NCBI RefSeq assembly: GCF_029266855.1
Contig: NZ_JAQSWB010000004.1
Coordinates: 124,001-188,000, forward strand
Source of the DNA: Fluviicola sp.
Lineage (GTDB): Bacteria > Bacteroidota > Bacteroidia > Flavobacteriales_D > Crocinitomicaceae
Reading direction: 5' to 3'
DNA length: 64,000 bases
Under the pieces are notes generated by a model. The model had not been told where the DNA came from. It did not search any database and worked only from the letters and a program-made list of their open reading frames with translations. A program made the position numbers and the translations under genes. Shown in pieces: positions 15,961-47,400 of the stretch; position 1 is the first letter of the stretch, and each line of letters starts with the position of its first letter.

Positions 15961-16542
15961 TTAAACAACTTCATCAATTTCGTCATCGAGGTAAATAAAG
16001 AATGCATATACCTCATCCTTTAATGCCTCAGCCTGTTGTTTCTTTTGCTGTTCTTTAAGCGTTAAAGTTTCTACCAAGGCAACGTCTGCTTTCAAATCGG
16101 CAGTGTTTTCTTGTCGAATGTCTTTACGCAACTCTTTTTTAGCTAAACGCAATTCTTTTTTCACCGCATTTCGTTCCGAATTAGCTTCATGAATCGCTAC
16201 CGACTGGTCCGCGTGCAAATCACACTTATCAATACGCAAGTATTTTTTGTCTCTCTTTAAATCTGCTTTCGCTTTTCGGAGCTCTTTTTTACTCATGTGT
16301 GATTCGATCTTTAAACCTGCCTCTTTATTTTTTTTGAATTCAGATTTGTGAAACGCAATACGTTCCCGATCTTTTTCAATACGTGACATGGTAGCTTTCA
16401 TGTCTTTATACTCTTTACGATTCAAGTACCGGTTTCCTTCGATTGAACCTTTTTCATTTGCGGCAAAAGAAGGCGTTGTCGCTAATAACCCTGCTACCAT
16501 CATCCCGATCATAAACAGGTTTTTTAATTTCATCTTTTCCAT
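15961..16542 (-). CDS. Exported highly charged helical protein, hypothetical
   Basis: ORF 193 aa; signal peptide (MKLKNLFMIGMMVAGLLATTPSFA) then Lys/Glu/Arg-rich helical sequence. Confidence 0.7.
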   Translation of the reverse strand: MEKMKLKNLFMIGMMVAGLLATTPSFAANEKGSIEGNRYLNRKEYKDMKATMSRIEKDRERIAFHKSEFKKNKEAGLKIESHMSKKELRKAKADLKRDKKYLRIDKCDLHADQSVAIHEANSERNAVKKELRLAKKELRKDIRQENTADLKADVALVETLTLKEQQKKQQAEALKDEVYAFFIYLDDEIDEVV

Positions 16543-27526: not shown

Positions 27527-28306
27527 TTAGATTTGAATCGAGCCTAGACTTTTGATCTGGCCTTTAGAAACCGTTACGTTTTGTATGCTCTTTTGAGATG
27601 CTACCACTTCACCAAGTCCTTTCGCCTCAATCTTCAAAAGATAGGTTCCATCCGGAACTCCTTTAATTAAAAAATATCCATTCGCGTTTGTGTAAGTGCT
27701 TGCATTGTGCGATGCGTTACTTAAACTGATTGCTGCTTTTGTTGTACCGCTTACATGTCCCTGAACCCCGGTGTCCGGATCGGAGATTTCAGTCAGAACA
27801 GGATTCAATATATACCCTCCGCCTGCTTGAATAACAGATGAGCCCACATTGAAGTCCAGCAAAACACTTGATGTTACTCCGCTGTTTACCTGGCAATGAA
27901 TTGGGACTTCAACCTGGTGAGAAACATTTGAGCTAAATGATAAATTCACCGTGTTGAGGCCATTTGTACCATTGAAAGACAGACTGTTTTCGCCGCTAAA
28001 CGTCAACCGAAGTTTGGTGTATGTACCCGGCTGAACAGTTGTAGCGCTTGCAATGGTAACTTCTGCACCATTGGTCAGGTCGAGAATATTAATCTCCTGA
28101 GTGCTTTCATTGATAGTAACCCAGCCCGAATTCTCCAAATACGCTTCCACCTTCATGATTTCAACATTCAGGGCTACAAAATCCCCGGGTGAATCCGTCA
28201 TTCTAACTTCCATTTGTCCCTGAGAGACCTTATTGTCTTTCTTACATGATTGAATAGTGAACCCTGCACAAACAACCAACAACGTTAATACCAGTATCCT
28301 TTTCAT
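27527..28306 (-). CDS. DUF4382 lipoprotein with carboxypeptidase-like regulatory domain
   Basis: ORF 259 aa; SCKKDN lipobox; MEVRMTDSPGDFVALNVEIMKVEAYLENSGW. Confidence 0.8.
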   Translation of the reverse strand: MKRILVLTLLVVCAGFTIQSCKKDNKVSQGQMEVRMTDSPGDFVALNVEIMKVEAYLENSGWVTINESTQEINILDLTNGAEVTIASATTVQPGTYTKLRLTFSGENSLSFNGTNGLNTVNLSFSSNVSHQVEVPIHCQVNSGVTSSVLLDFNVGSSVIQAGGGYILNPVLTEISDPDTGVQGHVSGTTKAAISLSNASHNASTYTNANGYFLIKGVPDGTYLLKIEAKGLGEVVASQKSIQNVTVSKGQIKSLGSIQI

Positions 28307-28493
28307 AATCGTGCATTTAATTCCGTCGGGGGTTTAACGAAGTTTATGCCAAAAGAAACCGGGAGATCTGAAATGAAGCCGAAACCACTTATAAATAAAG
28401 GAATGTTCAGGAAATGTATGAAGCGGTAATGTCTTAGGCTTGGTATGTTAATCTTATCAAAATGAAAAGATGATTTTCAATATGAAGGATTTT

Positions 28494-28531
28494 TGACAAA
28501 AAAAAGAGGGAGGCTTACCACTTCCTCCCTC
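28494..28531 (-). terminator. Rho-independent terminator (minus strand)
   Basis: Minus strand GAGGGAGG AAGTGGTAAG CCTCCCTC TTTTTTTG. Confidence 0.8.
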
Positions 28532-28592
28532 AAACTAACACACCTATGACCCGATTTTTGAGTATTCAAAAAGAAACTCATAACCTGATACA
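28494..28592 (-). ncRNA. Candidate ~100-nt minus-strand small RNA
   Basis: TACCTTTG box (revcomp 28596-28603), hairpin TGAGTTTC/GAAtACTCA, then GAGGGAGG-10 nt-CCTCCCTCTTTTTTT terminator; no CDS. Confidence 0.5.
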
Positions 28593-28770
28593 GAACAAAG
28601 GTATCTTTAAAGTTAAATCAAACACATATAAATTAATAAGAGGTGGGAACGAAGTAACATTTGGTTCATTTTTAAGAATACTTGAAATAATCTTTATCTA
28701 AAATCAATCTAATTTAAACCCGAATTGAAATTTTGGATTGGAGTTGGGTACAACTTCACAACTTGATGCG

Positions 28771-28778
28771 TACATTTG
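28771..28778 (+). promoter_or_regulatory. Bacteroidota -7 box TACATTTG for heme O synthase operon
   Basis: TAnnTTTG consensus; TTG at 28744-28746; 24 bp before the preferred ATG 28802. Confidence 0.5.
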
Positions 28779-28801
28779 CACAATCTTTAAAAAGAGTAAT
28801 T

Positions 28802-29713
28802 ATGGGTATCGGAAAAAAAGTGAAGATGTACATGAATTTCACCAAATTCAGACTCTCAGCCCTTGTTATTCTATCTGCCCTTTCCGGATATTTATTTGTA
28901 GGAGGTCATGACGGACTGGAAATGACTTACTTAATGCTTGGTGGTTTGCTGGTAACAGCTGCTTCCAACGGTTCCAATCAAATCTGGGAACGGGAACTGG
29001 ATGTTTTGATGAACCGTACAGGAAAGAGACCACTTCCCATGGGAGAAATGTCAGTAAATGAAGGCCTGATCGTGGTAGCCGCTTGCTTACTGCCGGGTCT
29101 TTGGATGCTTCATGAGTTGAACCTGGCATCCATGCTTCTTGGTTTGGCTGCCTTTGTTTCCTATGTTTTCATCTACACTCCAATGAAACGCATTTCCACC
29201 TGGGCGGTTTTTGTGGGGGCATTTCCTGGGGCACTTCCACCCATGATCGGTGTTGTTGCAGGAACGGAATCGGGAGAGCTAGGCTTGGTTGCAGGAGTTC
29301 TGTTCTTTGTGCAATTCGTATGGCAGTTTCCGCATTTTTGGGCAATTGCGTGGGTTGTTTACGATGATTATCAGCAAGCAGGATTTTCATTACTACCATC
29401 AAAGGATGGGCGCACAAAAGGATCTGCTTTTCAGATAGTTATTTACTCGCTGGCATTGATCCCTTTTTCCTTATTACCATGGTTAATGGGCTGGACTAGT
29501 GACATTACCTTAATTGTAGCAGGAACTTGTTCAATCTTATTTTTTCTTCAAGCCTACAAACTTTTCTTGAGCCTTACCATTGCAGATGCCAGAAAACTGA
29601 TGTTTGCCTCCTTTATCTGGTTACCAGTTGTTCAATTTTTATATGTGTTCGACAGAAATCTTCCGGCAATTAAAGCTGCTCTTGGGGAACACGTTACACT
29701 TTTTTTAAAATAA
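28802..29713 (+). CDS. ctaB: Heme O synthase (protoheme IX farnesyltransferase)
   Basis: ORF; AASNGSNQIWERELDVLMNRTGKRPLP, YTPMKRISTWAVFVGAFPGALPPMIG; start chosen at MGIGKKVKMY downstream of the promoter box. Confidence 0.95.
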   Translation: MGIGKKVKMYMNFTKFRLSALVILSALSGYLFVGGHDGLEMTYLMLGGLLVTAASNGSNQIWERELDVLMNRTGKRPLPMGEMSVNEGLIVVAACLLPGLWMLHELNLASMLLGLAAFVSYVFIYTPMKRISTWAVFVGAFPGALPPMIGVVAGTESGELGLVAGVLFFVQFVWQFPHFWAIAWVVYDDYQQAGFSLLPSKDGRTKGSAFQIVIYSLALIPFSLLPWLMGWTSDITLIVAGTCSILFFLQAYKLFLSLTIADARKLMFASFIWLPVVQFLYVFDRNLPAIKAALGEHVTLFLK

Positions 29714-46605: not shown

Positions 46606-47400
46606 TCAATTTTCAATTCTAAAAATGAGTTCATATCCCAATCCATTTTCTCTCAGGATCTTCAATTCAGCGGAGAGCTGGTCGGAAAGAGCACTGATCA
46701 GTTGAATTCCCAGACTTTCAAATGCCTCTGTATGAATTTCTGCCGGCAAACCGATCCCATTATCCGTAATTCTCAAGCAGAAATAAGTTCCGTCTGCCGA
46801 AAAACCAATCCTGATTATTCCCTTCCCCTCCGGAAATGCATACTTGAAACTATTGCTTACCGCTTCGTTTACAATTAATCCGATTGGAATCATCCGCTCG
46901 GCTTCCAGGCAAATTCCGTTATCTACCTCGTATTCAAAAACCACATCCGAATTGCTTCCCGCAAACGAACTGTTAATACTCAGAGTAAGTGTTTTAATAT
47001 AGTCTGAAACCTGAATCCGGCTCAAATCCCTGGTCCTGTAAAGCATTTCATGGATCATCGACATGGAAATGATCCGGTTTCTGCACTCCCTGATCAAGGC
47101 CAGGAATTTTTCATCCTTTGTATATGAAGCCTGCAGATTCATCAGGCTGGAAATGATTTGAAGGTTGTTTTTTACCCGGTGATGAACTTCCTGCAGGAGG
47201 GCTTCGCGTTCCTGAAGAGTAATTACAGAGTTTTCCAGTTCTTCTCCAAGCATATTCACCCCGGAAGCAATGGCATCAAAAACATCATTTTGATCCGTAA
47301 TCTCAGTTTTCTGGGTGAAATCCAAACGTGCATAAGCCACAATTACATCCATTATCGCATTGGCGCGTTCCTGGATGTATTTGACTTCTTTGGGATTCAT
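46606..47400 (-). CDS. Sensor-less histidine kinase (HisKA_2/HATPase)
   Basis: ORF 264 aa; [54 protein letters not shown]. Confidence 0.92.

Follow-up and report, generated by a model that had tools for sequence, protein, structure and literature searches.

On the minus strand of the window, by which we mean the whole 64,000-nucleotide stretch of DNA that was analysed, positions 28603-28498 hold a unit of ~93 nt, whose start is predicted at 28591, together with a -7 promoter box and a strong intrinsic terminator. It is very probable that this unit codes for a small regulatory RNA (sRNA), because 13 of 14 Fluviicola genomes preserve promoter box, core and end signal with hardly a letter changed. 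Sequence comparison lends good support to the unit being a conserved RNA gene. The discrete sRNA proposed in an initial annotation of this DNA thereby gains support, with its transcription deduced from the sequence. The best explanation, which we hold with good though not full confidence, is a free-standing sRNA gene that most likely acts in trans; its product is probably restricted to the genus and would make its putative contacts with mRNAs or a protein through an invariant single-stranded linker and the terminator loop. The locus has the following features.

28596..28603, minus strand: -7 promoter box TACCTTTG, Bacteroidota consensus TAnnTTTG
28498..28591, minus strand: predicted sRNA, ~93 nt, predicted start G28591, 3' end inside the T-run
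28559..28580, minus strand: 5' hairpin UGAGUUUC-UUUUU-GAAUACUCA, of drifting sequence with pairing kept in a nine-genome clade
28506..28556, minus strand: invariant core AATCGGGTCATAGGTGTGTTAGTTTGAGGGAGG-loop-CCTCCCTC, 92-100% identity over 51 nt covering nearly the whole core
28498..28531, minus strand: intrinsic terminator with 8-bp stem, conserved 10-nt loop AAGTGGTAAG and T8; 0/3000 shuffles, pairing kept in 12/12 aligned genomes
27527..28306, minus strand: DUF4382 lipoprotein gene, next on the sRNA strand, Pfam PF14321 (3.5e-23), present in 7/13 genomes
28771..28778, plus strand: probable ctaB promoter box TACATTTG, read from the window and also found in aligned clade-1 relatives
28802..29713, plus strand: ctaB, heme O synthase of the UbiA family, Pfam PF01040 (2.1e-47), divergent neighbour in 13/13 genomes

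Read along the minus strand, the locus runs from TACCTTTG through the stem-loop TGAGTTTC-TTTTT-GAATACTCA (28580-28559) and AATCGGGTCATAGGTGTGTTAGTTT to GAGGGAGG-AAGTGGTAAG-CCTCCCTC and T8 (28531-28498). It lies in an intergenic region whose length is ~495 bp (28307-28801) and not ~420 bp as first given, while the next gene on the minus strand (27527-28306) does lie ~190 nt away, as reported. The proposed -7 box holds as well: TACCTTTG at 28603-28596 matches TAnnTTTG, and this motif is located 40-47 nt upstream of the core in all 13 genomes that carry the unit, among them four that otherwise have unrelated sequence in this upstream part. At such a place, TAnnTTTG arises in ~0.5-2% of shuffles per genome. 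Both the consensus and the box position of -12 to -5, by which the predicted start was placed, are published (PMC9723704), and the +1 nucleotide is a G in 12/13 genomes. The TTTG described 15 bp above the -7 box is present in the source genome and has no equivalent in its relatives (TTTC, TTAG, CCTG and others), so that the -33 element of the predicted promoter is weak and not supported by the comparison.

The end signal consists of the stem GAGGGAGG (28531-28524), the loop AAGTGGTAAG (28523-28514), the stem CCTCCCTC (28513-28506) and T8 (28505-28498). When the spacer was shuffled 3000 times with its dinucleotides preserved, neither strand ever produced a perfect 8-bp G+C-rich stem with T6. 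None of the genes in the window feeds the terminator on the minus strand, just as had been observed from the sequence. A comparable structure occurs at a single other site in the 64-kb window (15934, minus strand), where it directly follows gene 15961-16542 and is an ordinary terminator. The attributes of an intergenic sRNA gene found here are its own promoter (TAnnTTTG at a nearly fixed distance in 13/13 genomes), its own terminator (8-bp stem and T8) and independence from a downstream gene, the co-oriented DUF4382 gene being absent from 6/13 genomes.

Of 200 shuffles of the sequence 28596-28494, 196 fold less well than the original. For the nine-genome clade, which is represented by eight distinct sequences, RNAalifold predicts a nine-pair helix of UGUAUCAGGUU and AAUCGGGUCAUA that is capped by a variable hairpin; 3' of this domain follow ~14 free nucleotides and then the terminator. 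The capping stem-loop (28580-28559) is the second hairpin of the initial annotation, and its existence is corroborated by three compensatory pairs, in which both sides have changed with pairing retained. In this hairpin 97.5% of cells are paired; shuffles reach 94.6%, and sliding lowers the figure to 36-64%. The terminator and the nine-pair helix are nearly invariant, so covariation is uninformative on their pairing, as it is on that of the core, which hardly varies either. In the distant clade the 5' hairpin is swapped for a different one (G011: AUACUUGGCU-AUUA-AGCUGAGUGU) while the core stays, which is why the 5' end of the sRNA looks like a replaceable structural cap. The constrained information looks to reside in the linker, the terminator stem and the loop that it closes, and the free linker AGGTGTGTTAGTTT is the likely seed. 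The view that the transcript contains no obvious ORF also stands, since no frame with a conserved start and stop was found across the 13 genomes; a small-protein reading was rejected for the same reason.

The near relatives of the window genome, which we take to be members of the freshwater genus Fluviicola within the family Crocinitomicaceae (Flavobacteriales), delimit the range of the unit. It is single-copy in 13 of 14 Fluviicola genomes, where it scores 88.8-114.7 bits with the covariance model R1, and is located beside the respiration gene ctaB in each of the 13 carriers. The core is 92-100% identical to the window copy over the 51-nt stretch, and the DNA of ctaB 70-83% over its aligned parts. 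A cultured species, F. chungangensis, is among the bacteria that possess the core. Most of the spacer is alignable within the nine-genome clade; in G003, G009, G010 and G011 the BLAST matches comprise the core alone and the remaining spacer is unalignable. Conservation of the hairpins in relatives, on which the initial annotation had made its proposal depend, was thus examined directly, and promoter box, core and terminator proved to be kept in 13/14 genomes with a covarying 5' hairpin. Among 240 genomes of Crocinitomicaceae and a sample of 399 from the order, no convincing homologue was detected outside Fluviicola. The spacers upstream of ctaB in other Crocinitomicaceae genera contain no such unit, and phages and plasmids yielded no match. 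Matches of R1 outside the genus reach ~31 bits or less and resemble unrelated terminators where inspected; one of the rejected matches (L057, with AATCGGGTCATAG) is a chance terminator stem. The exception within the genus is G004, which has no sRNA in its ctaB-upstream spacer (L081) and no copy elsewhere. Its lack of the unit is a natural absence that probably reflects loss, and because of it the sRNA is dispensable to the genus. The ctaB gene itself is retained in G004 with 80% amino acid identity.

The genomic neighbourhood allows two readings to be weighed in which the locus is not a free-standing RNA gene. The presence of the DUF4382 gene downstream on the same strand in seven genomes, in the window at a distance of ~190 nt, would suit a leader whose premature terminator controls this gene as an attenuator or riboswitch, and a leader attenuator had indeed been offered as an alternative. 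However, the gene is missing from six of the 13 genomes (G003, G005, G009, G010, G011 and G013; loci L021 and L023-L027), in which the next gene is convergent, on the opposite strand, and the core is still kept. The leader is therefore rejected as the main function and retains scarcely any probability. The neighbourhood on the other side is constant, with ctaB followed by cox3-like genes in all 13 genomes, and this permanent nearness to ctaB, together with the fact that an inverted repeat is also a DNA palindrome, could speak for a DNA element or a plain terminator, i.e. a transcript end or a regulatory site of ctaB. Such a reading is very improbable, given that no minus-strand gene feeds the terminator, that the T-run is one-sided, and that a promoter box, a covarying 5' hairpin and a conserved linker are superfluous for a terminator. 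The box TACATTTG at 28771-28778 suggests that ctaB has a divergent promoter of its own, and ctaB and the sRNA probably form divergent, non-overlapping transcription units. The far side of the unit, across from ctaB, harbors two genes without a Pfam match that probably encode outer-membrane proteins. The DUF4382 gene (27527-28306) has been gained or lost within Fluviicola.

The comparison with Rfam bears on the other alternative named at the outset, a 6S-like RNA. At gathering score the whole window returned no match, Bacteroidales-1 and Flavo-1 included; the proposed search for 6S, Bacteroidales-1 and Flavo-1 accordingly ended with no family that matches the unit, and the hits obtained at an E-value of 10 are due to chance only. 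The idea of an RNA polymerase-binding 6S RNA peculiar to the lineage agrees with a conserved single-copy RNA of ~100 nt and with the finding that RF01685 matches nothing elsewhere in the genome, although this model matched none of 99 genomes and no control either. Neither RF00013 nor RF01685 matches the region even at an E-value of 10, and no 6S family is among the weak Rfam matches to it. Instead of the long hairpin with a central open bubble, the fold shows a stem-loop domain at the 5' end, then the free linker and the terminator; unlike a 6S RNA, the unit occurs neither in the congener G004 nor in the family beyond Fluviicola. With no backing from Rfam or from the fold, the 6S-like alternative is unlikely, and we would assign it a very small share of the probability. 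The resemblance to 6S-Flavo (RF01685, PMC2864571) is confined to a free-standing gene, a similar model length (108 positions) and the occurrence in Bacteroidota, whereas the Fluviicola unit has no Rfam match and no 6S-like bubble. Judged by its sequence, it is a narrow-range RNA family of the ordinary kind, and new in that Rfam holds no match.

The closest parallels to the preferred trans-acting sRNA are found in its layout. GibS of Bacteroides thetaiotaomicron is a 145-nt RNA with a seed at its 5' end that pairs at start codons (PMC7366714). Like the Fluviicola unit, it is intergenic, conserved within its genus including the promoter, equipped with a Rho-independent terminator and endowed with a highly conserved single-stranded stretch, which is the seed in GibS; moreover, GibS adjoins an operon that it affects (PMC7366714), as the Fluviicola unit adjoins ctaB. 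The differences are the size of ~93 nt and the position of the conserved linker beside the terminator, and the likeness is one of layout, with no sequence relation claimed. Rfp18 of Flavobacterium psychrophilum, an independent transcript that is needed for normal levels of metalloprotease mRNA, is likewise conserved across one Flavobacteriales genus and strongly structured (PMC9723704). Compared by description only, it differs in its predicted pairing via a third stem-loop, whereas the Fluviicola RNA has two hairpins.

Judging from the sequence, transcription by the primary sigma factor would start at ~28591 from the TACCTTTG box and stop at the intrinsic terminator at ~28498, releasing an RNA with a variable 5' hairpin, an invariant linker of which ~14 nt are single-stranded (AGGUGUGUUAGUUU), and a terminator hairpin with the almost invariant loop AAGUGGUAAG. 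The unit combines a promoter and terminator of its own with the lack of an ORF and a stretch that is rigid and unpaired, which is how trans-acting sRNAs of the phylum such as GibS and Rfp18 are laid out, and we therefore regard AGGUGUGUUAGUUU as the candidate contact site for mRNAs. This stretch, possibly together with the loop AAGUGGUAAG, would most likely base-pair with A/C-rich sequences near the start of several mRNAs. In the manner of GibS in Bacteroides, such pairing would alter how these mRNAs are translated or how stable they are. We infer the pairing of the linker in trans with mRNAs from these analyses, and a constraint imposed by several targets would explain why the letters of linker and loop are fixed while the 5' hairpin drifts.

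The search for targets has a bearing on who the partner of the RNA might be. Across the 14 genomes, sites that match the linker's reverse complement do not outnumber those of a reversed control, and there is no other perfect copy of the seed complement, which speaks against a CRISPR repeat as the partner of the linker. Duplex scoring of the 61 ORFs in the window placed a histidine kinase gene on top (46606-47400, minus strand), which was rejected as a target since the complementarity is not conserved in the orthologues of relatives; it is a small HisKA_2 gene whose upstream region has long complementarity to the sRNA in the source genome only. Duplex energies at the starts of ctaB and the cox genes are unremarkable, and these genes are still worth testing as candidate targets, as GibS affects its adjacent operon. 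That no target mRNA emerged would also be expected if the linker and the terminator loop served as binding sites for an RNA-binding protein or for a second RNA, so that the sRNA acted by titration and not by mRNA pairing. The extent of the conserved linker plus terminator loop, which exceeds the needs of a short seed, fits such a sponge, and Bacteroides has no obvious homologues of Hfq and ProQ (PMC7366714), so a different partner is possible. The repeated binding motif that is typical of classic titrating RNAs is absent, however, and there is no known partner; we regard this explanation as rather unlikely. A further, if doubtful, prospect is that the unit represents a new genus-restricted family with an unusually rigid core of ~50 nt, in which linker and terminator loop both serve to recognise either numerous mRNAs or an RNA chaperone, in a phylum whose studied Bacteroides members show no obvious Hfq or ProQ.

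As a result of comparative genomics, the prediction of an sRNA gene in Fluviicola is solid; a literature search retrieved no transcriptome paper on the genus. To our knowledge, few regulatory RNAs of Bacteroidota have been studied outside Bacteroides and Flavobacterium. The trans-acting sRNA proposed here bears on the question of how those of the phylum act without obvious Hfq or ProQ. Being compact and single-copy, with promoter and end both clear, an invariant core that is defined and, in G004, a genome that naturally lacks it, the RNA is tractable for experiments, and the adjoining region for the assembly of the terminal oxidase is the first place to seek a phenotype.

Two minor observations concern the surroundings and the records of the unit. 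The block 28650-28720 (GAAGTAACATTTGG...AATCAATCTAATTTAA), which is situated between the divergent promoters and outside both the sRNA and ctaB, is well conserved in the aligned members of the nine-genome clade and could serve as a second promoter or as a site of regulation. The Fluviicola core also occurs in entry CP034120.1 (L038), whose public title, Glaciecola amylolytica THG-3.7, looks wrong.
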